Of a DNA stretch of 35,638 bases, positions 1,420 through 18,912 are shown one piece after another. Under the pieces are notes generated by a model. That model searched no databases, was not told where the DNA came from, and saw nothing but the letters and a program-made list of their open reading frames with translations. A program made the translations under genes and the position numbers. Within the stretch, counting starts at the first letter, position 1, and each line of letters begins with the position of its first letter. Source of the DNA: Chitinophagales bacterium (lineage in GTDB: Bacteria; Bacteroidota; Bacteroidia; Chitinophagales; CAIODY01); assembly GCA_026461075.1 (NCBI GenBank), contig JAPJNH010000033.1, positions 1 to 35,638 of the forward strand. Reading direction: 5' to 3'.

Positions 1420-4053
1420 ATGCAAGAGCAGAACTTAAATAGTGTTTTAACGCAAGAGCAAATCAACCAATTCCAAGGCTTGTTTGGCTTCTTAATTGCA
1501 GGGGACAGTCCTTTTCTGCAATTAGATGAGAGTGGCTTAATCCAATTTCAGAATGAAGCATCTAGCACTGTCGGAAAGCTAAAAATGCAGGAGGAATGGT
1601 TTGTGTCTTGGCAAACCTATTTTCGTCAGTATTGGGCTTTAAAGGGAAGACCGCATGGATTAACCGAATTTTGGGTTGAGTCGTCGAACACCGGTAATTT
1701 ATTGGTACTTCTTTTTGAAATACCCGCTAGCAAATTTTACGTAGTCCTTGCTCGAAAAGCAAAGGATGTGCATTCTGAAGAATATCTCAATCAGCTTCTA
1801 GCAGAGGTTCTGAAGAAATCAAGTCATTTTAAGTTAATCACCGATGCTTCCGGTAAAGTAGAATGGGTGAATGAAAGCTTTCTGAATTTTTTAGGATACT
1901 CCTTACAAGAACTAGTCGGACGAAAACCGGGTGAATTCTTGCAAGGCCCTTTGAGCGATACCGAAGAAATTTCAAAATTAAGTGAGCAAATAAAGCAAGG
2001 TGGACCTATTGACGCAACTTTGCTCAATTATAAGAAGAACGGAGAAACGTTCGTCGTTCAGTTAAAAGGTGATTCTATTCATAACGAATTAGGGGAAATT
2101 ACACATTTCTTCGCCGATGAATATGATGTAAGCGAGTTGCAACATACCCAAAATAGAATTGCTAGAAATTCAAAGTTTATTGAAGTGGTGATGGACACTT
2201 TCGTAAACGGGATTTTGGTGGAAGACGCGAATCGTAAAATATTACGTGCTAATAAAAAGTTCTGTGAAATTTTTGGCATACAAGCCTCTAATATATCCTT
2301 ACACGGTCAAGATTGTGCTACTGCTGCACAATTTTCTAAATCCTTATTTGTCGATGAGGATGGATTTATCAATTTTATAAATGAAGCGGTTCAAAACCGT
2401 GTTCTGAAGCGTCGTCACGAACTAGAACTAAAAGACGGACGAGTATTAAGTATCAGTTACATACCTATTGAGTATGAAAATAAATATGCTGGATGTTGTT
2501 GGAAGTATAATGATATTACTGACCGTAAAAAGAACGAACAGTTGCTTATCGAAGCGAAAAATAATGCAGAAGAACTAGCGAAATCTAAGCAAATGTTCTT
2601 GGCGAATATGAGTCATGAAATTCGTACACCGATGAATGCGGTTATGGGATTGAGTGCGCTTTTGGAAAATACGCCATTGAATGAAGAGCAGTCAGAATAT
2701 GTGAAAGCAATCAAAACATCTGCTGAAAATTTATTGGTTGTTATTAATGATATTCTTGATATCAGTAAATTAGATGTCAATAAATTAAAGATTGAAAAAA
2801 CACCGTTTAATTTCCAAAATTTCGTTCGACAAATTGAAATTTTACTTGGATTTAAAGCACGTGAGAAAGGACTGAATTTTCATATTCATGTGAAAGAAGG
2901 CGTTCCTGAATTTTTATTAGGAGATCATTTCAGGTTAAATCAGGTTTTGATCAATGTCATAGGCAATGCGATTAAGTTTACGGAAAAGGGGAGTGTTAAC
3001 ATGACCATTGAAGCAGTGCCCAAAAATAAAGAAGAGTACAATATTGAAATCGAAGTAGCTGATACGGGAATCGGTATCGAGGAAAAGAACTTAAAACATA
3101 TTTTTGATTCCTTCAATCAAGAGAATGCAAGTATCGCAAGACGATTTGGCGGAACAGGACTTGGTTTGAATATCTCTAAACGATTGACAGAGTTGATGGG
3201 AGGCACCTTGCTAATGCAAAGTAAAAAAGGTTTTGGTACTAAGGTCGAGATTCATGTACCGATGGAGCTAAGCAGTAATCCTGATTACTTACTCACGCAA
3301 GCAACGGATAAAGAAATTGATATTGCGGGTAAGCGGATTTTAATTGTAGAGGATAACGACTTTAATAGATTGTTGGCATCTACTATTTTACAAAAATCAA
3401 AAGTAATTGTTGACATCGCCAAAGATGGATTGGAAGCCCTTGTTGCTTGTGAAGACAATGAGTATGATTTGATATTGATGGATATTCAAATGCCAATCTT
3501 AGACGGTCATGAGGCAAGTGATTTATTGCGCGTTTTCAAAGTAAAAACACCTATTATCGGTCTTTCGGCCCATCCATCAGGTGAAGAGTGGAATATTTGT
3601 TTGGAACATGGGATGAATGATTATCTCTCCAAGCCGTTTAAGGAGCAAGAGTTGAAGGAGAAAATTGAGCGTAATCTAAAGGTGAATAAATTAGCCAACA
3701 ATTACGAGATTCCGTTGTTGTATAACTTGTCATATGTTGAACAAATTACTAAGGGGAATGAGGCCTTTTTAACACGTATTCTTCATACCTTTAAAGAAGA
3801 GCTAGGAAAAAGTATGCTGGAGATGAAGGCGGCTGCTACTGAAAAGAATTTACCGAAGTTGAAGTTCGTCGTTAATAAAATACGACCAACCATTAACAAC
3901 TTCAGTGTTTATCGTATGGCGCAGGAGATGAATGCAATCAGTGAATGGAAAGAAGATGGCGGCTTCGGTTCCGATCTCGACACCAAAGTTCGTGTGGTAG
4001 AAGCCATCATGATACAACTCATTAAGCAATTTGGAGAAAAGTTGAATAGATAA
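1420..4053 (+). CDS. hybrid histidine kinase, PAS-PAS-HisKA-HATPase-REC with HPt-like tail
   Basis: An 877-residue hybrid sensor kinase with no clear signal peptide or membrane segment, so probably cytosolic. Residues 20-115 form an unassigned sensor-like N terminus. Two PAS domains follow (about 130-245 and 250-370), then HisKA with phosphoacceptor H399 in SHEIRTPMN, and an HATPase with the N box at 512-516, DTGIG at 548-552 and GGTGLGL at 577-583. The receiver (about 638-752) has D688 and K738. The last 110 residues resemble an HPt domain, but the expected phospho-histidine is N819 (VVNKIRPTI, codon AAT), so this HPt should not carry phosphate. The downstream kinase starts on the base after this stop codon (TAA-ATG), indicating one transcript. 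The input signal is unknown. Confidence 0.9.
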   Translation: MQEQNLNSVLTQEQINQFQGLFGFLIAGDSPFLQLDESGLIQFQNEASSTVGKLKMQEEWFVSWQTYFRQYWALKGRPHGLTEFWVESSNTGNLLVLLFEIPASKFYVVLARKAKDVHSEEYLNQLLAEVLKKSSHFKLITDASGKVEWVNESFLNFLGYSLQELVGRKPGEFLQGPLSDTEEISKLSEQIKQGGPIDATLLNYKKNGETFVVQLKGDSIHNELGEITHFFADEYDVSELQHTQNRIARNSKFIEVVMDTFVNGILVEDANRKILRANKKFCEIFGIQASNISLHGQDCATAAQFSKSLFVDEDGFINFINEAVQNRVLKRRHELELKDGRVLSISYIPIEYENKYAGCCWKYNDITDRKKNEQLLIEAKNNAEELAKSKQMFLANMSHEIRTPMNAVMGLSALLENTPLNEEQSEYVKAIKTSAENLLVVINDILDISKLDVNKLKIEKTPFNFQNFVRQIEILLGFKAREKGLNFHIHVKEGVPEFLLGDHFRLNQVLINVIGNAIKFTEKGSVNMTIEAVPKNKEEYNIEIEVADTGIGIEEKNLKHIFDSFNQENASIARRFGGTGLGLNISKRLTELMGGTLLMQSKKGFGTKVEIHVPMELSSNPDYLLTQATDKEIDIAGKRILIVEDNDFNRLLASTILQKSKVIVDIAKDGLEALVACEDNEYDLILMDIQMPILDGHEASDLLRVFKVKTPIIGLSAHPSGEEWNICLEHGMNDYLSKPFKEQELKEKIERNLKVNKLANNYEIPLLYNLSYVEQITKGNEAFLTRILHTFKEELGKSMLEMKAAATEKNLPKLKFVVNKIRPTINNFSVYRMAQEMNAISEWKEDGGFGSDLDTKVRVVEAIMIQLIKQFGEKLNR

Positions 4054-6915
4054 ATGAAGATAAACCAACAGCAAATAGAAAAATTGTTCCCTTTCTTTAT
4101 TCAATTGAATAAAAAAGGAGAATGCTTAGCTGTAGGTCCTTCGCTCACAAAATTGGTTAATATCCCAATTGCAAAGCCTTGTTCGTCTTTTCTCAAAATA
4201 CATCAGCCGCAATTAGGCGACTTCTCATTGTTAGAGTATTGGAATGATCAAGATGGGAAACAAGCTTCTATACAAATTGAACAGTATATATTGCTTGGCT
4301 CTTGGAATATAATTGATGATTCAGTCTTTTTTCTAGGAGTCCCACAATTCGATTCCATCCAGTCATTCCATACGAGTGCTTTACAACAAAGTGATTTTGC
4401 TCCGCATGATACAAGTGTTCATTGGGTGAAGCAGTTCGCCGCTGATTTTGAATACAATAATGATTTACAAGAATTGTTTGCCATTCTAAAAAATCAAAGA
4501 GAGCAAATAAAGGAGGCTCAATTACAGCTTCGTAAGAATAATGATCAATTATTAGCAATCCTTAATAACCTTTCTTCTTGTGTTATTTTAGAAGACGGTA
4601 AGCGTAATGTACTTACCTTAAATAGGCCTTTCTGCGACTTGTTAAACATAAAAATCTCACCTACTAATTTCACGGGATTAGCAAATGAAGCACTCGCTGA
4701 ATACTTCGCTCCATTTCTTGGAGGTTCGCAGGCATGGAACCATCTAGCTAATCCAATTTTGGATGGCTTTAAACCAATACTTGATTTTGAAATGCCGACT
4801 TGGTCGGATGGTAAAATCGTTAGTTTAAGTTATGTGCCAATCCGTTTCGATGATAAATCGATCAATCATCTCTGGATTTTTAAAGATCGTACCATCCAAA
4901 GAAATGCCGAAAAAGTCCTTCGCTTGCGAGAGGAACGCTATCGTAATATTATTGCTAACATGAATCTTGGCTTGTTAGAGGTTGATTTGGAAGAAAGAAT
5001 TCTTTCTACCAACAAAAGCTTCTGCGAAATGAGTGGTTATTCGGAAGGAGAACTTATTGGAGTGAAAGCACCAGAGCTTTTCATTCAAGATAACCTCACC
5101 AAAGGTGAACACAAGGCCATCTTAGAACGTCGTACTAATCTTCAATCTGATGCTTACCAATTAAAAGTTAAAAATAAATTCAAACAACCACGTTGGTGGT
5201 TGGTGAGTGGTGCTCCTTTATTGAATGATCAAGGACAAGTAATCGGGTCTATTGGTATCCATCTAGATATCACCTCTCAAAAAGAAACAGAAAGCGAATT
5301 AATCGTTGCTCGCGATAGCGCACGTGAATCATCCAAAGCTAAGGAGTCCTTCTTAGCGAATATGAGCCATGAAATTCGTACCCCAATGAATGCGATTCTT
5401 GGGATGAGTAAACAATTAAGTAAAACAAAACTCAATAAAGAACAAGCGTTCTTTAACAGCACTATCGTAACGGCAGCCGATAATTTGTTGGTTATCCTTA
5501 ACGATATTTTAGATATCTCTAAAATTGAAGCAGGCAAACTTAGCGTCGAACATATTCCATTCAACTTAAAGGACCTTGTCACTAAGTTGTATAATCTCAT
5601 GGAGATGAAGGCTAAGGAGAAAGCCCTTCGTATCAACCTTCATTTTGATGTCGATCTACCGAATAATCTAATAGGTGATCCATATCGCTTAAATCAAATT
5701 CTTTATAATCTGGTTGGGAATGCGATTAAGTTTACTGATAAGGGGCATATTAATATTAATTGCAAACTGATGGAGGATGCTGTTGATAATTGTAGAGTCG
5801 ATATTTCAGTGAAGGATACTGGAATTGGAATGGATGAGAACTTTGCAACGCACCTATTTGAGAAATTCTCACAAGAGGATCGTTCTATTACTCGACGTTT
5901 CGGGGGTACCGGATTAGGATTGTCTATCTCCAAACAGTTGTCAGAATTAATGGGAGGTAGTATTAGCTTGCAGAGTAAAAAAGGGGAAGGGTCAACCTTT
6001 ACCTTGCATCTACCATTTGTGAAGTCAGATGTGGAAAGTATGCAGCTGGAAGAAAAGTCAACCGTGCTTTCTCCAATTGCTCTTTTAGGTAAACGGATAT
6101 TGTTAGCAGAAGATAATGAGCTAAATAGAATAGTGGCTGTTACCACCTTACAATCTTTTGGTGCAGAAGTTATAGAAGCTGAAAATGGTTTACGCGCTAT
6201 CGATTTGCTAAAATTTCGTGGACATTTTGATATTGTATTAATGGATTTAAGCATGCCAGAAATGGACGGTTTAATGGCGACACGTACTATTCGTCAAGAA
6301 CTTAAAATGAATATTCCGATTATAGCACTTACAGCTAATGCTATACTTGGAGAAAAACAAAAGTGCTTGGATGAAGGAATGGATGATTATATCTCTAAGC
6401 CTTTTGAAGAACTAGATCTTGTTCGGATGATTTTGAAGTATACCAATGAAAATAGTATTGTTGAAAATAATGATACAGCAGCGCTAGTCTCGAATACAAA
6501 CAGCGACGACGCCCTTAGCTTGCTGCGTGGGATGTTCTTGCCTGCTGATGAGCCAATACCTGTATTTGCGAATGTCGCTCCACAATATTCTTATGCTCGA
6601 CTAGAAAAAATGGGGAATGGCAATAAAGAATTAGTACGTAAGATTCGTGAAGTGTTCTTAAAGCAAATGCCAAGTTCATTAAGTGAACTAGAACTCGCGG
6701 TACGACAGCGCGACTACGACCAAGTATATATGGTGGCACATCGCTCTAAGTCGAGCCTAGTTAGTTTCTCTGCTGAAGAAGCGAAAGAACTCGCTAATCG
6801 AATGGAAGTCATTGCGAAAGAAAAAGGATCATTCGATGAAATCGATGCATGCTTTAATCAGTTTGCGGCAATTGTCAATAATATCCTGCTTGCGATGGAA
6901 CAAGATGTGGTTTAA
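4054..6915 (+). CDS. hybrid histidine kinase with HNOBA-like input, REC and intact HPt
   Basis: A 953-residue hybrid kinase. Residues 10-130 look like the heme-NO-binding-associated (HNOBA) PAS-like domain of H-NOX partners: FPFFIQL near 12-18, VGPSLTKL at 27-34, and FFLGVP followed by LQQSDFAPHDT at 110-120, which resembles the family's 'LxLSDIPLHDATRD' stretch. A coiled coil (about 140-165), a PAS-like segment (165-280) and a clear PAS domain (290-410) follow. HisKA has H439; the HATPase has DTGIG at 588-592 and GGTGLGL at 617-623; the receiver has D731 and K782. The C-terminal HPt (about 845-945) keeps its histidine, H896 in VAHRSKSS. The gene starts directly after the previous stop. Its stop overlaps the stop of the convergent repressor gene in the shared bases TTAA. 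The HNOBA assignment is less certain than the kinase call; no H-NOX gene lies in the window. Confidence 0.88.
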   Translation: MKINQQQIEKLFPFFIQLNKKGECLAVGPSLTKLVNIPIAKPCSSFLKIHQPQLGDFSLLEYWNDQDGKQASIQIEQYILLGSWNIIDDSVFFLGVPQFDSIQSFHTSALQQSDFAPHDTSVHWVKQFAADFEYNNDLQELFAILKNQREQIKEAQLQLRKNNDQLLAILNNLSSCVILEDGKRNVLTLNRPFCDLLNIKISPTNFTGLANEALAEYFAPFLGGSQAWNHLANPILDGFKPILDFEMPTWSDGKIVSLSYVPIRFDDKSINHLWIFKDRTIQRNAEKVLRLREERYRNIIANMNLGLLEVDLEERILSTNKSFCEMSGYSEGELIGVKAPELFIQDNLTKGEHKAILERRTNLQSDAYQLKVKNKFKQPRWWLVSGAPLLNDQGQVIGSIGIHLDITSQKETESELIVARDSARESSKAKESFLANMSHEIRTPMNAILGMSKQLSKTKLNKEQAFFNSTIVTAADNLLVILNDILDISKIEAGKLSVEHIPFNLKDLVTKLYNLMEMKAKEKALRINLHFDVDLPNNLIGDPYRLNQILYNLVGNAIKFTDKGHININCKLMEDAVDNCRVDISVKDTGIGMDENFATHLFEKFSQEDRSITRRFGGTGLGLSISKQLSELMGGSISLQSKKGEGSTFTLHLPFVKSDVESMQLEEKSTVLSPIALLGKRILLAEDNELNRIVAVTTLQSFGAEVIEAENGLRAIDLLKFRGHFDIVLMDLSMPEMDGLMATRTIRQELKMNIPIIALTANAILGEKQKCLDEGMDDYISKPFEELDLVRMILKYTNENSIVENNDTAALVSNTNSDDALSLLRGMFLPADEPIPVFANVAPQYSYARLEKMGNGNKELVRKIREVFLKQMPSSLSELELAVRQRDYDQVYMVAHRSKSSLVSFSAEEAKELANRMEVIAKEKGSFDEIDACFNQFAAIVNNILLAMEQDVV

Positions 6916-7721
6916 TCCTTCATCTTTACCACAACCGACTGTACCTCTTTCAAGATATTCGCAATACGCTCTTTCGTTAGTCCGCCCTCTGGCAACTCTG
7001 TGCTGATATAACTGATAAACTTCCATACTTCCTGCACCTCGCCAATCTTTACTACATAATCTTGATAGATCGGATTCAAAGAACGCATAATCAACTGCTG
7101 TTTTTGCTTGATTTCGTTTAATAGAATCTTGAAGACAAGCCCATCCTGCTTCGTCAATACAACATAAGCCATCTCATCTTTAATATCGTTCCAATTCTCT
7201 ACATATTCTGCCAGTACATACGACTTATCCGGAATTGGCAACATGCTATCTCCATCAATTTGGAACATACGATACTTGCGGTAGCTAGTCGTCAATACAG
7301 GCATTTGGAACTTCGGTAGAGAGCCGATAAACTCAGGGTCGAAAAAGCCCATCTGGTAGCCAGCTTTGGCACGTAAACCCACGACTTCGATATTGTCATT
7401 GTTCTCGCGATCGACTGTAGTAGCTAATACACGAAGCTTAGTGCCTGTAACGAAGACGTCATTCCCCGATTGCAATTCGCGCAACTTCCAAGCCGATAGC
7501 TGGGATAAGTCGTGCTTCAATAAAGCATCGATACTCAAGTTGAAATATTCCGCTACCGTCACTAAATCCTCCGGTGGCATATTCGAACGAATCCCGTTCT
7601 CATAACTGTTTAATTTGCCTCGGCTCATCCCTAATGCAGCCGCTAAATCTTCTTGGCTCTTGCCTTTTTGATTGCGCAATACTTTCATATTGCTCGCTAA
7701 ATAGATAATGCGTTCGCTCAT
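6912..7721 (-). CDS. S24-family (LexA/cI-like) transcriptional repressor
   Basis: A 269-residue repressor joining an XRE helix-turn-helix (about 8-70) to a C-terminal S24 peptidase domain. Seen in the sequence are the cleavage dipeptide A120-G121 in KAGY, the nucleophile S159 in DGDSML and the lysine K198 in VFKIL. Known S24 repressors cut themselves when RecA filaments form on damaged DNA, which lifts repression. The ATG at 7721 (MSERIIYL) was chosen because a longer in-frame start at 7784 would run through the promoter and a presumed operator. The gene is divergent from dinB-dnaE across about 100 bases containing two TGATAC-type inverted repeats, so it likely controls both itself and the polymerases. 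It is not a classical LexA, whose DNA-binding domain is a different winged helix. The 3' end meets the second kinase tail to tail. Confidence 0.9.
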   Translation of the reverse strand: MSERIIYLASNMKVLRNQKGKSQEDLAAALGMSRGKLNSYENGIRSNMPPEDLVTVAEYFNLSIDALLKHDLSQLSAWKLRELQSGNDVFVTGTKLRVLATTVDRENNDNIEVVGLRAKAGYQMGFFDPEFIGSLPKFQMPVLTTSYRKYRMFQIDGDSMLPIPDKSYVLAEYVENWNDIKDEMAYVVLTKQDGLVFKILLNEIKQKQQLIMRSLNPIYQDYVVKIGEVQEVWKFISYISTELPEGGLTKERIANILKEVQSVVVKMKD

Positions 7722-7753
7722 AGAATTTTTTTTTAAGAATTGCTTCCTTCTCA

Positions 7754-7785
7754 CAAAAATAGTGATACTTTGTGTAACATCCAAA
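7754..7785 (-). promoter_or_regulatory. promoter of the S24 repressor gene
   Basis: Read on the minus strand, TTTG (7785-7782) and TATTTTTG (7761-7754) are separated by 20 bases, an exact match to the Bacteroidota -33/-7 arrangement. The predicted start lies about 25 bases before the ATG at 7721. One operator-like repeat (7763-7779) fills the spacer and the other (7783-7805) covers the -33 box, which implies autorepression. Confidence 0.65.
7763..7779. promoter_or_regulatory. putative operator 1 (imperfect inverted repeat)
   Basis: TGATAC-N5-GTAACA is an imperfect inverted repeat with the same half-site and spacing as operator 2. It lies between the -33 and -7 boxes of the repressor promoter. 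Its centre is 23 bp from that of operator 2, about two helical turns, which would suit cooperative dimer binding. Confidence 0.6.
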
Positions 7786-7805
7786 TGATACTAAGTGTAT
7801 CATTT
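7783..7805. promoter_or_regulatory. putative operator 2 (perfect inverted repeat)
   Basis: A perfect inverted repeat with 9-base arms, AAATGATAC-N5-GTATCATTT. It overlaps the -33 box of the repressor gene and lies 17 bases before the dinB start codon, where a bound repressor would block transcription into dinB-dnaE. A loose -7 box, TATCATTTG (one base longer than consensus), overlaps its right arm and may belong to dinB. Confidence 0.7.
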
Positions 7806-7822
7806 GAAAATAAATCCTTTTT

Positions 7823-9037
7823 ATGACAGCTACACGAACCATTGCCCACATGGATCTCGATACCTTTTTTGTGTCGGTAGAACGCTTGCAAAACTCCGCC
7901 CTTATCGGTAAGCCGGTATTGGTTGGCGGCGCTAGCGACCGTGGGGTGGTAGCTTCTTGTAGTTACGAAGCGCGTAGTTATGGCATACATTCTGCCATGC
8001 CCATGAAAATGGCGCGACAGCTCTGTCCAGAAGCAATTATCGTTCGTGGCGACCATGAACGTTATAGCTATTATTCCAATGTCGTTTCAGAAATTATTGA
8101 AGAAGCGGTACCGCTCTATGAAAAAATGTCTATCGACGAATTCTATATGGACCTCTCCGGAATGGATCGCTTCTTTGGGTCTTATAAGTGGGCTACCGAA
8201 CTCCGTCAACGCATTATTCGCGAAAGTGGATTGCCCTTGTCTTTTGCCATGTCGATTAATAAAACAGTCGCTAAAATAGGAACAGGGCAAGCGAAGCCCA
8301 ATGGACAGCTGCAAATTGAATATGGAAAAGAGAAAGATTTTTTAGCCCCCTTATCCGTTCGTAAAATTCCAATGGTAGGCGAGAAGACCTATCAAATTTT
8401 AAAAAGTATGGGCATTGAAAAAATCGAAACGATTCAGCAAATGCCATCGGAGCTAATGCAACAAGTTTTGGGCGAAAACGGACTGGCAATTTGGCGGAAG
8501 GCGAATGCCTTGGATGATACGCCCGTATTGCCCTATTGTGAACAGCAGTCATTATCCACTGAAACTACTTTCGAGCGAGATACGATGGACTTGACCCATT
8601 TACACCGTGTATTGATTCATCAAATCGAACAGCTCACCTTTCAGCTTCGCTCGAGCGATCGGCTAACGGGTTGTATCACTATCAAACTACGCTATTCTGA
8701 TTTCAATACGCATACTATGCAATTGCGCATTCCGTATACCGCCCTTGATCACGTTCTGATTACGAAAGCTAAGGAGCTCTTTGCGAAACTCTATACACAA
8801 CGCTTACAGATTCGTTTAATCGGCGTCCGTTTTAGTCATTTGATTCAGGGGGCTTATCAATTTGATTTATTTGATGATACCAAAGAAAAAGTATTACTCT
8901 ATGCCGCCATGGATAAGCTCCGCAAGCGCTTTGGTAAGGATACGATACAAAGAGCGGGAGGGGTTGATTTTAAAGATGTAGCAGAAGTAAGAGATTCTCG
9001 TAAAACAAAACTATTGAATAAAGGGAAGAAGAAATGA
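7823..9037 (+). CDS. dinB: Y-family DNA polymerase (DinB/Pol IV type)
   Basis: A 404-residue translesion polymerase. The palm motifs are visible: D11 in HMDLDTFF and D105-E106 in SIDEFYMD, the metal-binding carboxylates of Y-family enzymes. The little-finger domain occupies about 240-345. A sliding-clamp binding motif, QFDLF at 346-350, is followed by a lysine-rich tail. It is the first gene of the inducible pair and shares four bases (ATGA) with dnaE, so the two are probably translationally coupled. In ImuB-DnaE2 systems the Y-family member is catalytically dead; here the catalytic acids are intact, so this looks like an active DinB rather than an ImuB. It is the only complete gene of the window ending in TGA. 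Confidence 0.93.
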   Translation: MTATRTIAHMDLDTFFVSVERLQNSALIGKPVLVGGASDRGVVASCSYEARSYGIHSAMPMKMARQLCPEAIIVRGDHERYSYYSNVVSEIIEEAVPLYEKMSIDEFYMDLSGMDRFFGSYKWATELRQRIIRESGLPLSFAMSINKTVAKIGTGQAKPNGQLQIEYGKEKDFLAPLSVRKIPMVGEKTYQILKSMGIEKIETIQQMPSELMQQVLGENGLAIWRKANALDDTPVLPYCEQQSLSTETTFERDTMDLTHLHRVLIHQIEQLTFQLRSSDRLTGCITIKLRYSDFNTHTMQLRIPYTALDHVLITKAKELFAKLYTQRLQIRLIGVRFSHLIQGAYQFDLFDDTKEKVLLYAAMDKLRKRFGKDTIQRAGGVDFKDVAEVRDSRKTKLLNKGKKK

Positions 9038-11976
9038 TCTTGGCGCATACGGCATATAGTTTTCATTACGGCGTATTGAGTACGGAAGAAATGCTCGAGC
9101 ACTTAGCTACTAACGGCTATACTCGATTTATTTTAGCTGACATCAATAATACCTCTGCTGTGTTGGATGCCTTGCGCCTAGCGCCTTTGAAAGGCTTAAA
9201 GCCCATTGTCGGAGTTGATTTTCGTAACGGCGTTCAACAACGATTCATCGCCATCGCTAAAAATAATGCAGGGTATCGTCGTATCAATGAATGCCTGAGT
9301 GCCTGCTTACATGCACAAGCATCCGTTCCCGAACAAGCGCCTGATCTCGGAGACGATGTAATTATCATCTATCCTTTAGCTGCGTATAAGTCGCAAACAC
9401 TCGGTCCCAATTGCTATATCGGCATTGCGCCGCATGAAGTGCAAAGCTTGGCCTTCTCTGCTGCAAAGCACCTCTTAAATCATTGCTTGGCACTGCCTGT
9501 TTTTAGCTTCGTGAACCGCGCTCACTTTGTGTCGCATCAATTATTGCGTGCAATTGATCAGAACATCGTTCTAAGCAAGTTGCAACGTCAAGATGTCGGA
9601 CGTGCCGATGAAAGTATTCTGCCAATCGAACAGATGAAGAAAGCCTATGAATGGCATCCGAAGCTGTGGACCAATGCAGAACGTATTTTTGAAGCTTGTG
9701 AGCTGTCATTTGAATACGGAAAGTTTGCAAACAAAAACCGAAAATGCTATACACGAAGTACGGTGGAAGATTGGCGCCTGCTCCGGCAGTTATGCGAAAT
9801 CGGATTGACAGAACGCTATCCTAAAGCAAATCGCGATATCCGCCAACGAATGGAGAAAGAGCTGCAAATCATCGGTCAGATGGAGTTTGCAGCCTATTTT
9901 TTAATCAACTGGGACCTGATTCAATATGCCCGAAGACGCAACTTTTATTATGTCGGCAGAGGTAGCGGCGCTAATAGCTTAGTCGCCTATCTGCTGCGTA
10001 TTACCGACGTCGATCCCATCGATCTAGATTTGTATTTTGAACGATTTATCAATCCGTATCGGACTAATCCGCCCGATTTCGATATGGACTTTTCCTGGAC
10101 CGACCGCGAAGATATTACGCAGTACATTTTTAATCGTTATGGCGATACACATACTGCTTTACTCGGCGCCTATAATACCTTTCAGCACGATGCGGTGATT
10201 CGTGAAATCGGAAAAGTAATGGGAATGCCTGCTCCAGAAATAGATCGTTTACAACGACTGCAAGATCTTTCGCAAGCCGATAGTCTGGGACAGCGCGTCT
10301 TGCGTTATAGCGCGATGCTCCAGGGATTACCCAGTCATCTTAGTATACACTCTAGCGGAATTCTTATTTCTGAAGAACCGATTTCGCAATACAGCGCCAC
10401 CTTCCTTCCTCCGAAAGGCTTTCCAACGACACAGTTTAGTATGCTTGAAGCAGAAGACATCGGCCTGTATAAGTTTGATATCTTAAGTCAACGTGGACTC
10501 GCGAAAATTAAAGAGGCGGTCGAGATTGTAGAACGAGAAGAGAAGGTGCGTTTGGATATTCATGATATGCCAAAGATTAAGAACGACCCTGTGGTAAAGC
10601 GTTTGCTAAAGGAAGGGGAGTGTATCGGTTGTTTTTATATCGAGTCGCCAGCTATGCGGATGTTGTTGACGAAGCTACGTGCAGATGATTATATCCGATT
10701 AGTTGCCGCCAGTTCTATTATACGCCCAGGAGTTTCTAAAAGTGGGATGATGGCAGAATATATCCGCCGTTATCGCAACGCCGACTTGCGTGAAAAAGCG
10801 CGTGAAGCACTACCGGAGTTGTATGATCTTTTACAAGAAACCTATGGCGTGATGGTCTATCAAGAGGATGTGATTAAAGTCGCGCATTATCTGGCAGGAT
10901 TGTCTTTGGCGGAAGCAGATTATTTGCGAAGAGGCATGACTTGGAAGTTTAAAAAGAGAAATGAATTCAACCAAGTGCATCAAAAGTTTTTGGAATCTTG
11001 CCGGGCTAAAGGCTTTTCCGAAAAGACGGTACAAGACTTATGGCATCAAATAGAGAGCTTTGCTAATTATGCTTTTTCTAAGGCGCATTCGGCTAGTTAT
11101 GCCGTGGAGAGTTTTCAAGCACTCTATATCAAAGCCTATTATCCTTTGGCCTATATGGCGGCGACCTTAAATCACGGAGGCGGATTTTATAAACCAGAGT
11201 TTTATGTACATGAGGCCCGTCGCTTTGGTGCAGATATACAAGCGCCTTGCGTGAATGAGAGCGATGCAGGTGTGCGTTTGAAAGGCAAACAGCTGTTCAT
11301 TGGCTTGAGTTGGATACAAGGTATCGAAAGCCCTTTTGTAGAATCTATTCTCCGCAATCGAAGTACAGAAGGCGCGTTTCAGCATTTAGCGGATTTTGTA
11401 GAGCGGCTGAATCCGGATATCAACCAGCTGCGTTTATTGATTAGAATTGGCGCTTTCCGCTTTACCCATTTAGCCAATAAGCAACTTTTGTGGGAAGCAC
11501 ATCTTTTAGTCGGGCAGCGGAAACGACAAGGTTCTGGACCTTTATTGTTCAGTACCGAGATTAGGCAAATTCAACTGCCGGCACTTACGGTAGACCCTTT
11601 GGAGGAGGCCTATACACAAATCGAGTTATTGGGCTTCCCGCTATGTTCTCCTTATTTGTTGGTAGCAGAAGATATCCCGAGTCCCTTACTAGCATCCGAT
11701 TTGAAACTGAATCTGTATCGCGAGGTGGAGCTAGTTGGCTATTTGGTAGCGTATAAAACAACCTATACACAGCAAGGGGATAAAATGTGCTTCGGTACCT
11801 TTCTCGACTTACACGGTCATTGGCTAGATACAGTTCATTTCCCCGCTGCTACGAAAGATTTTCCATTCCGCGGACCAGGGGTCTATCATTTAAAGGGAAG
11901 GGTAGAAGAAGAGTTTGATTTCTTTTATTTGAATGTCAGTTTTATGCGTCGCTTGAATAGTAAAAACGTAGGATAG
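9034..11976 (+). CDS. dnaE: second DNA polymerase III alpha subunit (short, error-prone type)
   Basis: A 980-residue C-family polymerase, shorter than the roughly 1160 residues of a replicative DnaE. The N-terminal PHP domain (about 1-210) begins directly at MILAHTAYS and keeps only H5 of the usual HxH metal motif, so PHP activity is doubtful. The polymerase aspartates are present: D348 and D350 in PPDFDMDF and D482 in KFDIL. The conserved finger stretch NYAFSKAHSASYAV lies near 678-691. Helix-hairpin-helix-like sequence follows at about 752-810 and an OB fold at about 890-975. The start overlaps dinB by four bases. Pairing with a Y-family polymerase under an S24 repressor suggests a lesion-bypass enzyme; the replicative DnaE should be encoded elsewhere. 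Confidence 0.9.
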   Translation: MILAHTAYSFHYGVLSTEEMLEHLATNGYTRFILADINNTSAVLDALRLAPLKGLKPIVGVDFRNGVQQRFIAIAKNNAGYRRINECLSACLHAQASVPEQAPDLGDDVIIIYPLAAYKSQTLGPNCYIGIAPHEVQSLAFSAAKHLLNHCLALPVFSFVNRAHFVSHQLLRAIDQNIVLSKLQRQDVGRADESILPIEQMKKAYEWHPKLWTNAERIFEACELSFEYGKFANKNRKCYTRSTVEDWRLLRQLCEIGLTERYPKANRDIRQRMEKELQIIGQMEFAAYFLINWDLIQYARRRNFYYVGRGSGANSLVAYLLRITDVDPIDLDLYFERFINPYRTNPPDFDMDFSWTDREDITQYIFNRYGDTHTALLGAYNTFQHDAVIREIGKVMGMPAPEIDRLQRLQDLSQADSLGQRVLRYSAMLQGLPSHLSIHSSGILISEEPISQYSATFLPPKGFPTTQFSMLEAEDIGLYKFDILSQRGLAKIKEAVEIVEREEKVRLDIHDMPKIKNDPVVKRLLKEGECIGCFYIESPAMRMLLTKLRADDYIRLVAASSIIRPGVSKSGMMAEYIRRYRNADLREKAREALPELYDLLQETYGVMVYQEDVIKVAHYLAGLSLAEADYLRRGMTWKFKKRNEFNQVHQKFLESCRAKGFSEKTVQDLWHQIESFANYAFSKAHSASYAVESFQALYIKAYYPLAYMAATLNHGGGFYKPEFYVHEARRFGADIQAPCVNESDAGVRLKGKQLFIGLSWIQGIESPFVESILRNRSTEGAFQHLADFVERLNPDINQLRLLIRIGAFRFTHLANKQLLWEAHLLVGQRKRQGSGPLLFSTEIRQIQLPALTVDPLEEAYTQIELLGFPLCSPYLLVAEDIPSPLLASDLKLNLYREVELVGYLVAYKTTYTQQGDKMCFGTFLDLHGHWLDTVHFPAATKDFPFRGPGVYHLKGRVEEEFDFFYLNVSFMRRLNSKNVG

Positions 11977-11985
11977 TAGTTAATT

Positions 11986-11998
11986 TATAACTTTACTT
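11986..11998 (+). repeat. direct repeat copy 1 upstream of the mobile mystery pair
   Basis: TATAACTTTACTT, identical to the copy at 12019-12031, with 33 bp between corresponding positions (about three helical turns). It overlaps a -7-like box, TACTTTTG at 11994-12001, so a bound regulator could occlude the promoter. This is probably an operator for the HTH protein encoded immediately downstream. Confidence 0.6.
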
Positions 11999-12018
11999 TT
12001 GATTTATTAAAGAAAAGC

Positions 12019-12031
12019 TATAACTTTACTT
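12019..12031 (+). repeat. direct repeat copy 2 upstream of the mobile mystery pair
   Basis: Second exact copy of TATAACTTTACTT. It ends one base before the ATG at 12033 and so occupies the ribosome-binding region. Two identical non-palindromic sites at this spacing suggest tandem binding by the neighbouring XRE-type protein. Confidence 0.6.
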
Positions 12032-12032
12032 A

Positions 12033-12491
12033 ATGAACAAAAAATCTATTCAATTACAGCAGCTAAATCAAAAAATGATGCGGATGGCGGTTTTGCGGAA
12101 AATGCCCATGCCAACGCATGGTTGGGTGAAAGCAATCCGTGGTGCAATAGGAATGTCGATGCAACAATTGGGGAATCGACTCTCGATTTCTAAGCAAGCA
12201 GTACTAGATTTAGAAAAGCGTGAGCAGACGGGTGCAATAACAATCAAAGCGCTGAAAGAAGTGGCGCAGGCCATGGATATGGAATTGGTTTATGGCTTTG
12301 TTCCGAAAGACGGCACTTTAGAAGCTTTGGTTGAACGAAGAGCAACAGAAATTGCAAGGGAAATTGTATTGCGTACTGCCACTACGATGCAGTTAGAGGA
12401 TCAAGCAAATTCAAAAAAAAGAATTGCCAAAGCAATAAAAGAGCGAGCGAATGCGTTATTACATGCAAAGTCTAAACTATTATGGGATTAA
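12033..12491 (+). CDS. mobile mystery protein A (XRE-type regulator)
   Basis: A 152-residue protein matching the 'mobile mystery protein A' pattern: a basic N terminus with the conserved PTHGWVKAIRGAIGMS stretch (27-42), a Cro/cI-type helix-turn-helix (about 32-85, SISKQAVLDLEKRE) and a helical C-terminal half. In this family the gene is found next to mobile mystery protein B, a Fic enzyme, in variable genome regions, and the arrangement resembles an antitoxin-toxin pair. Here it precedes and overlaps the Fic gene by ten bases. The two identical direct repeats just upstream suggest autoregulation. Its role as an antitoxin is inference. Confidence 0.85.
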   Translation: MNKKSIQLQQLNQKMMRMAVLRKMPMPTHGWVKAIRGAIGMSMQQLGNRLSISKQAVLDLEKREQTGAITIKALKEVAQAMDMELVYGFVPKDGTLEALVERRATEIAREIVLRTATTMQLEDQANSKKRIAKAIKERANALLHAKSKLLWD

Positions 12492-13078
12492 TGGATACTA
12501 GCTCATTCGGTCAGACTCCTTTGGATGCGGATGAGCGAGAAGGCTTGCTGATTGCGAGTATAACGACTAATGGAGAGCTGGATGAATTTGAGCAACACAA
12601 CATTGAGCATGCCTTGCAATGGCTGATGGGACGGTCTTTTACAGCGGATGTTGTTTTTAGTGAAGCATTTATTCGCTTGGTGCACAAACGAATGTTTGGC
12701 GAGGTTTGGGTATGGGCAGGGGAGTTTCGAAAGACGAATAAAAACTTCGGCGTTGATAAATGGGAAATTATTACCGAACTCCGTAAGCTAATCGATGATG
12801 CTAAATTTTGGCACGCGAATGCAATTTATCCTCCAGATGAATTAGCGCTACGGTTTAAGCATCGTATTGTACAGATTCATTGTTTTGCCAATGGTAACGG
12901 GCGACATAGTCGTTTGATGGCGGATATCATTATTGAAAAATTGTACCAAATGCCCGCCTTCACTTGGGGACGTAAGTTTCAACAGAAAGATGTTCTAATC
13001 CGAAACTTGTATTTAGACGCAATCAAGTTGGCTGACAATGGAGATTTTAGCGCGTTGCTGAAATTCGCTCGGTCTTAG
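12482..13078 (+). CDS. mobile mystery protein B (Fic-domain protein)
   Basis: A 198-residue Fic-family protein, a class that usually transfers AMP or other phosphate-containing groups to target proteins. The active-site motif is HCFANGNGRHSR at 133-144: catalytic H133, the GNGR anion-binding loop and R144 are present, while the usual Asp/Glu two residues before the second Gly of the motif is N137. The N-terminal stretch QTPLDADEREGLL (about 10-22) is typical of the family. An alternative ATG at 12491 would join the upstream stop as TAATG and remove three residues. With its HTH partner it forms a compact two-gene accessory module between the mutagenesis cassette and galE. Confidence 0.87.
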   Translation: MGLMDTSSFGQTPLDADEREGLLIASITTNGELDEFEQHNIEHALQWLMGRSFTADVVFSEAFIRLVHKRMFGEVWVWAGEFRKTNKNFGVDKWEIITELRKLIDDAKFWHANAIYPPDELALRFKHRIVQIHCFANGNGRHSRLMADIIIEKLYQMPAFTWGRKFQQKDVLIRNLYLDAIKLADNGDFSALLKFARS

Positions 13079-14244: not shown

Positions 14245-17200
14245 TTGAGAAATTTTGTTAGATATTGTTTATTCGTACTCGTGTTTTTCATTTTTGGAAG
14301 AGCACAAGCTAGTCACATTGTTGGAGGCGACTTAACCTATACCTATAACGGAGGCACAAGCTATACTTTTACTTTAACCCTCTATCGTGATTGTCAGAAT
14401 TCGACCACTACCTTTCCTAATCCTGCAGGCGGAGGCGGTGGGACTGCGCCTAAACTATACGTGTATTATTCTTCAGGATTTGCTCCAGCAACACTAGGGA
14501 CCGCGTATGGCTCTGCCCTAAATCTAGCTTTCGCTCCTGGTTACAATACCACGGGAACAACAGTGAGTCCTTACTACTATTCACCCTGCCTCACATTCCC
14601 TGCAGGGATTTGCGTTAAGAAAGCGGTTTACACAGCTACGACCAATTTGCCTGCCACACCGGGCGGCTATACGGTTTTGTATCAGAATTGCTGTCGTAAT
14701 TCAAGCGTGAATTTTAATATTAATACTAGCCAAGACGGAGCAACCTATTTGTGTGAGGTCCCAGGTTCCCCTTACCAAGCGAATAGTAGCCCTGTCTTCA
14801 CAACATTACCTCCAATCGCAATTTGTCAAAACTCACCATTTTCATTCCCTTGTGGTGCAACGGATGCGAACGGAGATCAATTGGTATATTCTTTGAATAC
14901 ACCCTTCAATGGAACAATGACCCCTCCTGTTGGATTCTCGGGACTGACATGGAATAGTGCAGGGGGGTATTCAATAAGCAATTTCTTAGGAGGAACCCCC
15001 GCATTGGCTATCGACCCTAACACAGGAGTCCTTACTTGTAATCCTCCAAACGCTGGAACATTTTGTGTCGGAATCAAAGTGGAGGAATATCGAAATGGCG
15101 TTTATATTGGTTGTATCTATCGGGATATTCAATTCAATATCAATCCTTGCGTGACGGTTGTCTCTGCTGCTGTGGCAAATACTGCTGGATTCAATTACGT
15201 ACTTGCATGCGGAAGCAAGACGGTAACCTTTACCAATAATTCAAGTCCAATCAATGGAACCTTGACAACCTTCTTCTGGAATTTTGGGGATCCCCTCAGC
15301 ACCGCTGATACTTCAAAACTGCAATCACCGATTTATACCTATTCCGACACGGGTACCTATACAGCCTTGTATATCATGAATCCAGGACAAATAGGTTCAT
15401 GCTCTGATACGGTCTATAAAACAGTGAAGGTATACGATAAGCCTTTTGTGAATTTTGGTATAATTGGGAATAAAGTCTGCACGAATATCAGCTTTAAGGA
15501 TTCAAGTAAAATAAAACAAACGCCTGCAGTTGCCACCTATAAATGGTCGTTTGGGGATGGTTCCTATTCTACCTTGCAGAATCCAACTCATATTTATTCT
15601 GGAGGAGGAAATTATAATGTCAAACTTGTTGTTACCCAGGCCTCCGGTTGTAAGGATTCGCTCACGAAAGTTTTAACGGTTATCGGACCCTATCCAACAG
15701 CGGTTATTAATGTGGTGACACCTAACTGTAAATCCAAAACAATAAGTTTTGCCCCCGGTTCTTCCTATTATTCCTACTTATGGAACTTCGGCGACTTAAA
15801 TACACTGGCCGACTCTTCCATCAGCTCCAATCCAAGTTATACCTATCCCGATACGGGATCCTATACTGTTACGTTAAAGATTAATCAAAGCTTGGCTGCT
15901 GCTTGCCGAAGTACTGCCACAGTTGTCGTTAAAACCTATCCTCCATTTAATGCTGGATTGAAGCTCTTTCCAAATCCGACTTGCGTTAATACCCCAATTG
16001 TTTTTACCGATACCTCCAAAGGTATTTTAATGCCTAATTATTGGAGCCTGAATTACGGCGACGCCTCGCCGATACTTACCTCAACTGTTGCTCCTTTCAG
16101 CGCCTCGCATGCCTACAGCGCTACCGGTACCTATTCCATTAAGTTTTTGGTGAAGAATAGTGCAGGCTGTCGAGATAGCGTGCTTAGAAGTGTTCAAATA
16201 CAGACTCCTCCGGTTGCCGCTATCAGCGTTCCGCCTTTAGTTTGTAATTCTATGCAGGTAGCTCCCGCTTCAGTAAATACAGCCTATTCTTATGCGTGGG
16301 ACTTCGGACAAGCAAATACAAATGCAGATACATCTTCGTTCATAAGTCCTGCTTATACTTATACAGATACAGGGGCGCATCAAATTCGTTTAATCCTCAA
16401 TCCTACCATTGGAGGCACCTGCACCGATACCGCAACCGCTTGGGTAAAAGTGTATAGCCCACTAACGGCTAACTTCGCACAAAATCCATCCATTGCTTGT
16501 ATTGGCAACTCTACGCAATTCGTCAATTTGTCTGCTGGAATTGTAAATCCAAGTTCTTATCAATGGACTTTCTCCGACGGCTTTAGCTCTACAGCGCTTA
16601 ATCCTATTCATGCGTTTAACGCAGTAGATACTTTTCAAGTGAAACTAATCGCGAACTATGCCAGCATTGGCTGTTCGGATAGTACACAGAAGGATGTGAT
16701 CATTTACCCAATCGCTAATGCGATAATAGCAACGGCACCTTTACAATGTCAGTCTCTGGCAGTAAACTTTATGACGCCATCTATCGCTGGATCTTATTCA
16801 TGGAACTTTGGCGATATGTCGACCAATTTAGATACTTCGTCGATTCAAAATACAAGCTATACTTACCCAGATACTGGCGCCTATACCGTTCGTCAGATTT
16901 TGAATATCGGTATGCAGGGTACCTGTTCAGATACCGTGTATAAAACTATTCGCGTTTATGGTCCGCTGAAGTCATACTTTAAGTACGCTCCGCACATCGT
17001 TTGTCCGAATTACCCAATTCAGTTCGTCGATTCTTCCTATGGTCGTTCAAAACCTACCTTACGCAAGTGGGATTTCGGTGATGCCTCTCCAATTGCTTAT
17101 GGCACTAATGTCACCCATGCCTATGCTAATACAGGCTTTTATAATGTGACCTTAATTGTGTTCAACGCGCAAGGTTGCTCCGATACGAGTGTTCAAGTAG

Positions 17201-18912
17201 TAAATGTGCTTAATCCAGTACCTCCGAACTTTGCCATTAATGCGCCAACCCTAAGCTGCCGAAATACAGTCGCGTTTTCATCCAACTATGCGGCGCCTAC
17301 TTATTTGTGGAGCTTTGGAGAACCAAGTTCCCCTTTCAATACTAGCTCCTTCTCCAACCCAACGCACGCTTATGTGAATTCAGGATATTATACCGTAACC
17401 TTAATAGCCTATCCCGGAACAGGTTGCGCGGATACTGCGGTGCACGTAGTGAATGTGCAATTTGGTTTACAAGCAGGCTTCGATACCGTAGGTGTTTGTG
17501 TGTATGACTCCGCAGTCGTGCAACAGCAAACAATCCCTGGACCAGGAAGCTTGATTCAGGCAACTTGGTATTGGGGAGATGGAGATAGTTCGTCTACCTT
17601 GTCGCAGTATGTAAAACACCTGTATCAAAATGCGGGTACCTATCAAATAAATATGGTGGTAACGAATTCGTGGGGTTGCCAAGATTCCATACAAATGCCA
17701 ATCAATATTTATCCGCGTCCGATTATCAATATTGGAACTGCAGCTACCATCTGTAATCTTGATACGGTGAATCTCACTGCGCAAGGCGGGGGCACTTATC
17801 AATGGTCGCCAAACTATGCTATAGACAGTATTAACAGTGCGACGCCGAAAGTTACCCCTGATAAAACGACGCGATATCACGTCAAGGTAGTTTCTCCATT
17901 AGGCTGTTTCGATACGGCAAGCGTTTTTATTACGAATGTGAATCCTCCTTCTAGAGGAGTGGTTTTAGATACTACCATTTGTTATGGTGATAGCGCGCTT
18001 TTAAGAGCTGGTCCGACGAATTTAAAATACACCTGGTTGCCGAATTATAATCTATCATCGAATAAAGCGGCTAATCCATGGGCCTTCCCTTTGGTAGCAA
18101 CTACTTATACCGTTCACGTGGCTGATGGTGCTTGTGTGCATGATGATACTTTCCGTTTGAATGTAGTGAAATTGGCACAACCCAATGCAGGTCAAGATAT
18201 CACCATTTGTAAGGGAAGTACCGCTACGCTACAAGGTAGCGGCGGCGTATATTATACCTGGTCGCCAAACGCGAATATGTCCTTTTCAAATACTGCAAAT
18301 CCTGTAGTCTATCCAGATATAACCACTACCTATACATTGACAGTTATTGATACTTTCAGTTGTTTGAAACCTATCTCTGATAAGGTGACTGTGCATGTCG
18401 AAGATTTTAATTGGGCCTATGCCGGAGCGGATACTTCAGGCGTAAAAGGTATTCCAATTGAATTGCATGCAGAAGGGGGTGTAAGCTATTCATGGCAACC
18501 AATCTATGGTTTGGATAATCCGAATGTTCAGAATCCTAGCGCTACTTTAGATAAAGACATGACTTATGTCGTTACTGTAATATCTGCCAATGGATGTATC
18601 GATCATGATACCATCAATGTTGTAATATTCCCGGAGATAACGGCGTACATTCCGAATGCGTTCACACCTAACGGAGACGGGGTAGATGATATCTTTATCC
18701 CGATTTATGCTGGAGTAACTGGCTTGATGGAATTCTCCATTTATAACCGTTGGGGGAATAAAGTGTTTACCACAACAGATCGCAATGAGGGTTGGGATGG
18801 ACAATATAAAGGTCAAGATGCAGAAATTGGGGCCTATGTTTGGGTGATTCGCGTGCGTGATTTAACAGGTGCTGAATGGTTGAAAAAAGGGGATGTTACC
18901 CTAATACGTTAA
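14245..18912 (+). CDS. giant surface protein: alternating PKD repeats, Ig-like repeats, type B T9SS sorting domain
   Basis: A 1555-residue secreted protein. It starts at TTG (14245); no ATG lies upstream in frame after the stop at 14200, and the signal peptide begins there with cleavage likely after RAQA near residue 22. Residues 23-300 form an N-terminal domain (SHIVGGDLTYTY, conserved paired cysteines) common in Bacteroidota adhesin-like proteins. Residues about 300-1158 hold ten PKD-like units in strict alternation: five long units of WNFGDxxxxADTS type and five short units of WxFGDxxxx type. Four Ig-like 'WSPN' repeats (about 1158-1465) follow. The last 90 residues (AYIPNAFTPNGDGVDD, FSIYNRWGNKVF, then W-D-G and GAYVW) are the gliding-motility-associated C-terminal domain, which directs export and attachment by the type IX secretion system. 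A role in adhesion or gliding is inferred. Confidence 0.9.
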   Translation: MRNFVRYCLFVLVFFIFGRAQASHIVGGDLTYTYNGGTSYTFTLTLYRDCQNSTTTFPNPAGGGGGTAPKLYVYYSSGFAPATLGTAYGSALNLAFAPGYNTTGTTVSPYYYSPCLTFPAGICVKKAVYTATTNLPATPGGYTVLYQNCCRNSSVNFNINTSQDGATYLCEVPGSPYQANSSPVFTTLPPIAICQNSPFSFPCGATDANGDQLVYSLNTPFNGTMTPPVGFSGLTWNSAGGYSISNFLGGTPALAIDPNTGVLTCNPPNAGTFCVGIKVEEYRNGVYIGCIYRDIQFNINPCVTVVSAAVANTAGFNYVLACGSKTVTFTNNSSPINGTLTTFFWNFGDPLSTADTSKLQSPIYTYSDTGTYTALYIMNPGQIGSCSDTVYKTVKVYDKPFVNFGIIGNKVCTNISFKDSSKIKQTPAVATYKWSFGDGSYSTLQNPTHIYSGGGNYNVKLVVTQASGCKDSLTKVLTVIGPYPTAVINVVTPNCKSKTISFAPGSSYYSYLWNFGDLNTLADSSISSNPSYTYPDTGSYTVTLKINQSLAAACRSTATVVVKTYPPFNAGLKLFPNPTCVNTPIVFTDTSKGILMPNYWSLNYGDASPILTSTVAPFSASHAYSATGTYSIKFLVKNSAGCRDSVLRSVQIQTPPVAAISVPPLVCNSMQVAPASVNTAYSYAWDFGQANTNADTSSFISPAYTYTDTGAHQIRLILNPTIGGTCTDTATAWVKVYSPLTANFAQNPSIACIGNSTQFVNLSAGIVNPSSYQWTFSDGFSSTALNPIHAFNAVDTFQVKLIANYASIGCSDSTQKDVIIYPIANAIIATAPLQCQSLAVNFMTPSIAGSYSWNFGDMSTNLDTSSIQNTSYTYPDTGAYTVRQILNIGMQGTCSDTVYKTIRVYGPLKSYFKYAPHIVCPNYPIQFVDSSYGRSKPTLRKWDFGDASPIAYGTNVTHAYANTGFYNVTLIVFNAQGCSDTSVQVVNVLNPVPPNFAINAPTLSCRNTVAFSSNYAAPTYLWSFGEPSSPFNTSSFSNPTHAYVNSGYYTVTLIAYPGTGCADTAVHVVNVQFGLQAGFDTVGVCVYDSAVVQQQTIPGPGSLIQATWYWGDGDSSSTLSQYVKHLYQNAGTYQINMVVTNSWGCQDSIQMPINIYPRPIINIGTAATICNLDTVNLTAQGGGTYQWSPNYAIDSINSATPKVTPDKTTRYHVKVVSPLGCFDTASVFITNVNPPSRGVVLDTTICYGDSALLRAGPTNLKYTWLPNYNLSSNKAANPWAFPLVATTYTVHVADGACVHDDTFRLNVVKLAQPNAGQDITICKGSTATLQGSGGVYYTWSPNANMSFSNTANPVVYPDITTTYTLTVIDTFSCLKPISDKVTVHVEDFNWAYAGADTSGVKGIPIELHAEGGVSYSWQPIYGLDNPNVQNPSATLDKDMTYVVTVISANGCIDHDTINVVIFPEITAYIPNAFTPNGDGVDDIFIPIYAGVTGLMEFSIYNRWGNKVFTTTDRNEGWDGQYKGQDAEIGAYVWVIRVRDLTGAEWLKKGDVTLIR

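Follow-up and report, generated by a model that had tools for sequence, protein, structure and literature searches.

The mobile mystery A/B gene pair in the window analysed here, a stretch of 35,638 nucleotides from a Chitinophagales bacterium, probably forms an autoregulated module of the toxin–antitoxin type, in which A would restrain B, most plausibly in trans. Upstream of A, comparison of loci revealed an array of palindromic sites whose register is shared with a promoter-like box and with the start codon, and the letters of these sites co-vary with residues of A; invariant residues were also found. From these features we infer DNA binding and repression by A, contact between A and B, and toxicity of B.

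In the proposed mechanism, A would bind 18-bp palindromes through its XRE-type helix-turn-helix (HTH), presumably as dimers, with residues 54, 56 and 59 of the recognition helix selecting the operator letters. The putative sites are phased by about three helical turns (33 bp) over the promoter and up to the start codon, and occupancy by A should thus silence A and B together. The 33-bp spacing may be set by contacts of neighbouring A units with each other or with B. The C-terminal domain of A, with its invariant M-x-L-E-x-Q, would supply an inhibitory glutamate in trans to B, a predicted Fic-fold modifier with a class I-like layout and no inhibitory motif of its own. Coordinates of these features are collected in Table 1.

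Table 1. Features of the mobile mystery A/B locus and of the polymerase genes upstream of it (window coordinates).
Feature	Position	Strand	Remarks
S24-type regulator	6912-7784	-	Pfam S24 exactly at cut-off
Y-family polymerase	7823-9037		part of the "mutagenesis cassette"
DnaE-like polymerase	9034-11976	same strand as A	part of the "mutagenesis cassette"
Operator 2 (distal; putative)	11979..11996	+	centre 11987|11988, 45 bp before ATG; GTTAATTTA.TAACTTTAC, left half degenerate
TAnnTTTG-like -7 box TACTTTTG	11994..12001	+	overlaps right edge of operator 2
Operator 1 (proximal; putative)	12012..12029	+	centre 12020|12021, 12 bp before ATG; GAAAAGCTA.TAACTTTAC
Mobile mystery protein A, 152 aa	12033..12491	+	XRE-type HTH (about residues 30-88) and helical C-terminal domain
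Predicted recognition helix of A, residues 54-66	12192..12230	+	residues 54, 56 and 59 co-vary with operator letters
M-x-L-E-x-Q of A, residues 119-124	12387..12404	+	proposed inhibitory element against B; function inferred
Mobile mystery protein B, 198 aa, Fic-fold enzyme	12482..13078	+	overlaps A gene by 10 nt
Fic signature HCFANGNGRHSR of B, residues 133-144	12878..12913	+	Asn137 replaces Asp/Glu

Family and distribution

The preliminary description had assigned the pair to the mobile mystery A/B family, and both members were found to exceed the corresponding NCBIfam cut-offs: TIGR02612 for A (144.3 vs. 122.6 bits over the whole protein) and TIGR02613 for B (226 vs. 124.4 bits). B also contains the Pfam Fic domain PF02661 (37.6 vs. 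24 bits). The occurrence of the pair is patchy. A is over its cut-off in 47 of 396 genomes of the same order, as is B (47/396), and a presence/absence comparison showed that the pair is not fixed at this site in all relatives, A being present in two of six genomes of the family. Matches to B occur in 244 of 72,556 plasmid records and in none of the phage records. Against viral contigs, A alone retrieved no relative and the B alignment retrieved five loci, which were used solely in the protein alignments (82 rows for A and 74 for B). Despite these numbers (244 plasmid records; 47/396 genomes), "mobile mystery" turned up in just four of the papers covered by the literature search, once in each, and the family accessions in three.

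An array of putative operators at 33-bp steps

Two exact copies of TATAACTTTACTT, 33 bp apart from start to start, are located at 11986-11998 and 12019-12031, as had been stated for this DNA. Their described placement is also correct: the first copy reads into the box TACTTTTG, and a single base separates the second from the ATG at 12033. TAnnTTTG is presumably the consensus of the -7 promoter box. Overlooked in the preliminary description was that the 13-mer belongs to a palindrome of 18 bp (about GTMARGNTATANCYTTAC), of which it represents the better-conserved side. The entire genome (2,525,610 bases in 166 contigs) contains no exact match to TATARCTTTACTT other than these two, and none to the reversed-pattern control. 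When the 56-bp spacer was shuffled 20,000 times, 9 of the shuffled sequences had an exact 13-mer repeat at 13-60 bp. With up to three mismatches, 24 matches were observed in the window against 22.0 expected; loose matches are therefore attributable to chance, and the strong evidence is comparative.

Regions upstream of A were gathered from genomes of the same order and from nine further loci found in a genome-contig scan (L033-L041), among them a Treponema locus and one from an Acidimicrobiales MAG. A motif-free autocorrelation of base matches over 55 loci (one of the 56 being too short) gave lag 33 as its top lag, with z 26.5, and a second peak at lag 66; in 200 shuffles, z did not exceed 3.5 at any lag. 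The lag-33 signal was absent (z -0.4) from the upstream regions of 35 genes taken from the 91 neighbours. In the same 55 loci, the three best palindrome centres precede the start codon by 45, 12 and 78 bp, and the half-site consensus of the palindromic weight matrix, read outward, is approximately T-A-A/G-C-Y-T-T/G-A-C. At least two sites were detected upstream of A in 46 of 56 loci; counting sites above a score of 5, four were found in 11 loci, three in 28, two in 7, one in 2 and none in 8. The 96 adjacent spacings were 33, 32 and 34 bp in 74, 20 and 2 cases, respectively. Since the weight-matrix scan was trained on the very sequences it scores and is confined to positions no more than 6 bp from fixed registers, it is the autocorrelation that provides the unbiased evidence. 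The operator-like nature proposed for the two repeats is supported by this array at 33-bp steps across loci. The window itself holds two sites, with weak left halves and scores of 15 and 19; the third expected place falls inside dnaE.

The promoter-like box was found in the -45 register in 28 of the 45 loci that have a scoring -45 site, and in the -12, -78 and -111 registers in 0, 1 and 0 loci. From the position of the box over the -45 site, operator 1 would therefore sit in a short 5' leader, in the ribosome-binding region up to the start codon. A TTG 17-23 bp upstream of the box is present in 15 of those 28 loci, and inspection of the window sequence found none at this distance from its TACTTTTG box.

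At lag 33, identity was 1010/1332 within sites and 374/1031 in the spacers. Because the spacers repeat far less than the sites, the array is not a simple tandem duplication. That the repeats of the window are due to chance, or are a functionless residue of such a duplication, could be argued from the result of shuffling the full window 200 times with dinucleotides preserved, as 8 of the shuffled sequences had an exact 13-mer repeat at 13-60 bp. The comparative data already contradict this reading, in that the lag-33 signal was obtained in two separate sets of loci, the spacers are unrepeated and the site letters co-vary with A, and we regard it as extremely improbable.

The second of these sets consisted of 20 proteobacterial plasmid loci, in which lag 33 was again the top lag (z 16.0, and 15.2 in a repeat of the calculation) and the site letters were quite different. 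An averaged palindrome profile of these 20 loci did not display clear peaks at 33-bp steps, and palindromes were seen in single loci, for example L113 and L128, at about -11, -43, -76 and -109; for the proteobacterial loci, it is thus the spacing that the sequences demonstrate, and the palindromes in individual loci only. When the first set was reduced to 20 loci at 60% identity of A, the signal persisted, but z was 10.7 at lag 32, slightly higher than the 9.8 at lag 33. Taken at the level of sequence, the spacing appears to be largely kept in distant relatives while the site letters change, and the A/operator set can serve as naturally occurring data on the specificity of XRE proteins and as a case of spacing outlasting site sequence. 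A more far-reaching proposal, which we put forward tentatively and consider doubtful as a whole, is that the rigid array geometry (a pitch of ~33 bp, with the proximal site ~12 bp before the start codon) would be selected more strongly than the letters, which would drift with three helix residues across phyla, A being both an array-forming repressor and a Fic antitoxin, and B an Asn-substituted Fic protein with unusual chemistry.

Protein A and its proposed recognition of the operator letters

Matches of the A HTH among PDB folds include HigA and HipB, with 6lty_A at Z 8.6 and rmsd 2.7 over 69 residues; the comparison covered about residues 26-87 and little of the C-terminal part. Foldseek with the A model yielded no match at E<=0.001.

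Co-variation was evaluated in the 46 loci that have two or more scoring sites. When the 135 columns of A were ranked by their association with operator differences, corrected for overall distance, residues 59 and 56 came first and second. Rules for individual letters, picked after inspecting the table, are as follows: CC at half-site positions 4-5 was observed in 17 of 18 loci with E59 vs. 0 of 28 without it, T at position 5 in 20 of 20 with A/G56 vs. 4 of 26 without, and C at position 9 in 35 of 38 with K/R54 vs. 0 of 8 without. A weaker rule is CT with D59 alone (14/19 vs. 3/27). The A protein of the window (K54, A56, D59), with its half-site TAACTTTAC, fits these rules. On a tree of 41 loci built from B plus A minus its HTH, disjoint pairs over all branches changed in the same direction, in the opposite direction or not at all in 8/0/0 cases for E59, 6/0/1 for A/G56 and 3/0/1 for K/R54; supported branches alone leave 1-2 independent pairs per trait, and tests there are low in power. 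Operator geometry and the three-residue letter code together offer a direct, testable handle on the role of A.

Protein B, a Fic-fold enzyme with Asn in its motif

The B model, built from a nine-sequence alignment, has a mean pLDDT of 78.2, with residues 1-29 under 50. Its best fold match was FICD (6i7i; Z 15.4, rmsd 3.7, 164 residues), and, as matches within 1 Z were counted as tied, Fic-1 (8wt0_A; Z 15.2, 170 residues) and VbhT (3shg_A; Z 14.9, rmsd 3.3, 178 residues, covering residues 10-198) rank with it. Class I toxins match B over residues 10 or 12 to 198. B also matches PDC-S04 at 9.7e-17, which is a candidate defence class only.

The signature HCFANGNGRHSR does not conform to HxFx(D/E)GNGRxxR, the canonical motif of Fic AMP-transferases. 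Asn137 is found in 74/74 rows of B at the place where canonical motifs have Asp or Glu as an acidic metal ligand, and this invariance bears on the question of which Fic enzymes still use ATP-Mg. Conceivably, B is not an AMP-transferase, Asn137 altering its use of metal and nucleotide such that B has another chemistry, or removes or binds modified groups. In class I Fic-1, E139 is described as required for AMPylation, and the E139A variant as losing toxicity (accessible portion of PMC13327609), which, with the invariance of Asn137, favours this possibility. However, AMPylation of FtsZ has been reported for CccR, which likewise has Asn in its motif, HPFGNGNGRTVR (PMC9755527, in the part available), and His133, Gly138-Arg141 and Arg144 are retained in 74/74 rows of B. 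Loss of AMP-transfer is thus somewhat unlikely, though it deserves serious consideration.

Possible inhibition of B by A

Met119, Leu121, Glu122, Gln124 and Trp151 of A are each conserved in 82/82 rows. The pattern (S/T)xxxE is present at residues 118-122 in 68/82 rows and is followed by G or N in 10/82. The strict inhibitory motif (S/T)xxxE(G/N) occurs in 12/82 rows of A, where position 118 accounts for 10 of its 13 hits; it is absent from A of the window, which has TMQLED instead. In B, the strict motif occurs in 4/74 rows, each time at a different place, and B of the window has none. The A helix predicted for residues 96-121 ends at the M-x-L-E-x-Q motif (model pTM 0.48). In class I antitoxins, the motif is described as lying at the end of the first antitoxin helix, where its Glu contacts the second Fic-motif Arg (PMC8401265, in the part available).

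A profile of the A C-terminal part compared with VbhA-type antitoxins gave a probability of 0.1, column-shuffled controls reaching up to 0.3; this is a weak test, because its eight templates are nearly alike. Pfam VbhA was absent among the 25 families listed for A. Separately, matches to VbhA-type Fic antitoxins (L134-L142) were found in 9 of 298 same-order genomes, five of them over the cut-off, and none in the genome of the window.

A simpler reading is that A is an autorepressor only, its M-x-L-E-x-Q domain serving dimerisation or array formation, with B controlled transcriptionally or by another factor. The invariant residues of A and the spacing co-occur across the family, the strict motif is rare in A (10/82 at position 118) and the weak profile test found no sequence link to VbhA, all of which this reading would accommodate. 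Against it, 70/74 rows of B are without (S/T)xxxE(G/N), and truncation is asymmetric: full-length A with incomplete B (six of 65 examined loci, among them L037, which runs to the contig end) is commoner than full-length B with incomplete A (one of 65, at the contig start). Both genes are full length in 50 of the 65 loci, and neither is in 8. A further point raised against the autorepressor-only reading is that two A-like proteins without a B match also are without M-x-L-E-x-Q; these solitary XRE proteins (L073 and L075) retain the HTH and are also without the lag-33 repeat, and since the array is missing there too, they do not discriminate between an autorepressor and an antitoxin. On balance, a role of A confined to autorepression appears rather unlikely, and restraint of B by A is the reading we prefer. 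In L055, L058, L059 and L081, B is incomplete or interrupted, A is full length and M-x-L-E-x-Q is kept.

Relation to known systems

The module resembles the class I FicT-FicA systems (VbhT-VbhA, EcFicT-EcFicA and Fic-1-AntF) in having a partner gene and a Fic core without its own inhibitory motif, in the fold of B over residues 10-198, and in (S/T)xxxE in the C-terminal region of A (68/82). Unlike these systems, A has an XRE DNA-binding domain and B has Asn in its Fic motif; in addition, the strict motif is rare in A and a VbhA profile match was not found, in what was a weak test.

CccR of Yersinia pseudotuberculosis, composed of a FIC domain and a C-terminal HTH, is similar to B in having Asn at the same place of the Fic motif. 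According to the available part of the report, it inhibits its own expression via its DNA-binding domain, which can be likened to the autoregulation proposed for A/B; unlike the two-gene A/B module, it is one secreted protein (PMC9755527).

The XRE-type toxin–antitoxin autorepressors HigA and HipB are similar to A in that they are fold matches of its HTH. Xre-RES is similar in binding a palindromic repeat in its own promoter, with its model sites about 20 bp apart, as described in the accessible portion, vs. 33 bp here (PMC12204516). In all three, the toxins differ from B.

A TIGR02612-like gene beside a Fic gene was earlier called an antitoxin (PMC3936711, in part), and TIGR02613 was counted under Fic/Doc among the immune cargo of Tn7-like transposons (PMC8649781, in part). 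In the accessible sections of other reports, the pair is listed with mobile elements, and B among plasmid cell-division regulators (PMC4750851, PMC4886054, PMC5651007). A toxin–antitoxin survey names AbrB, PHD and YhfG as Fic partners, and an XRE-Fic pair is not named in the portions covered (PMC2701414). The descriptions of mobile mystery A/B that were found, as far as their available text extends, do not include the 33-bp array, the letter code, Asn137 or M-x-L-E-x-Q. A literature search, with subscription papers outside its coverage, found no operator study of the pair. The locus in the window adds a member to a known family, as a variant that merits experiments on account of its array, letter code and invariant Asn137.

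Genomic context

The preliminary description had placed the pair directly after an inducible polymerase operon and raised the possibility of an accessory stress or defence island. The link to the polymerase genes proved to be local. The order dnaE-A-B-galE is common to G000 and G005, two species of the genus (dnaE of G005 being split over two contigs), and a third member, G004 (89% complete), has no A. Could the pair have been co-opted into the S24-dinB-dnaE stress-mutagenesis operon and be induced by read-through? In favour of this, only 57 bp separate the dnaE stop codon from the start of A, both genes have the same orientation, and the gene order is kept in two species. However, no dinB/dnaE match at 1e-10 was found beside any of the 54 other loci (L055-L108; flanks of about 4 kb in most cases, some cut by contig ends and some holding only remnants), G001 and G003 of another genus have dinB-dnaE without the pair, and the pair has a putative operator array and a -7-like box of its own. 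Co-option is accordingly very unlikely.

The idea of a stress or defence island fared no better. In a scan of 90 of the 91 neighbouring genes, with 25 families listed, the neighbour families were mixed and many were housekeeping, with a few matches to restriction and pAgo families; DRT-type labels assigned by PADLOC were left uncounted, as they may be ordinary DNA polymerase. With 0/54 loci having an adjacent dinB/dnaE match and with neighbours this mixed, both the mutagenesis-operon link and the defence island were set aside.

Several other features were noted. A perfect palindrome, CAAATGATAC-TAAGT-GTATCATTTG, is located at 7782-7806 between the divergent genes of the S24-type regulator and the Y-family polymerase and is likely the operator of the S24 regulator. 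A second dinB-dnaE-like pair, with a DnaE about 46-50% identical, lies near the start of contig C19 (L048) of the same genome, for which contamination is 4.13%. Just downstream of galE, 14245-18912 encodes a protein of 1555 aa that contains PKD repeats and ends in a C-terminal domain of the type IX secretion kind (CHU_C). An NtrC-like response regulator (48-1397) is followed by a tandem pair of genes similar to hybrid histidine kinases (1420-6915).
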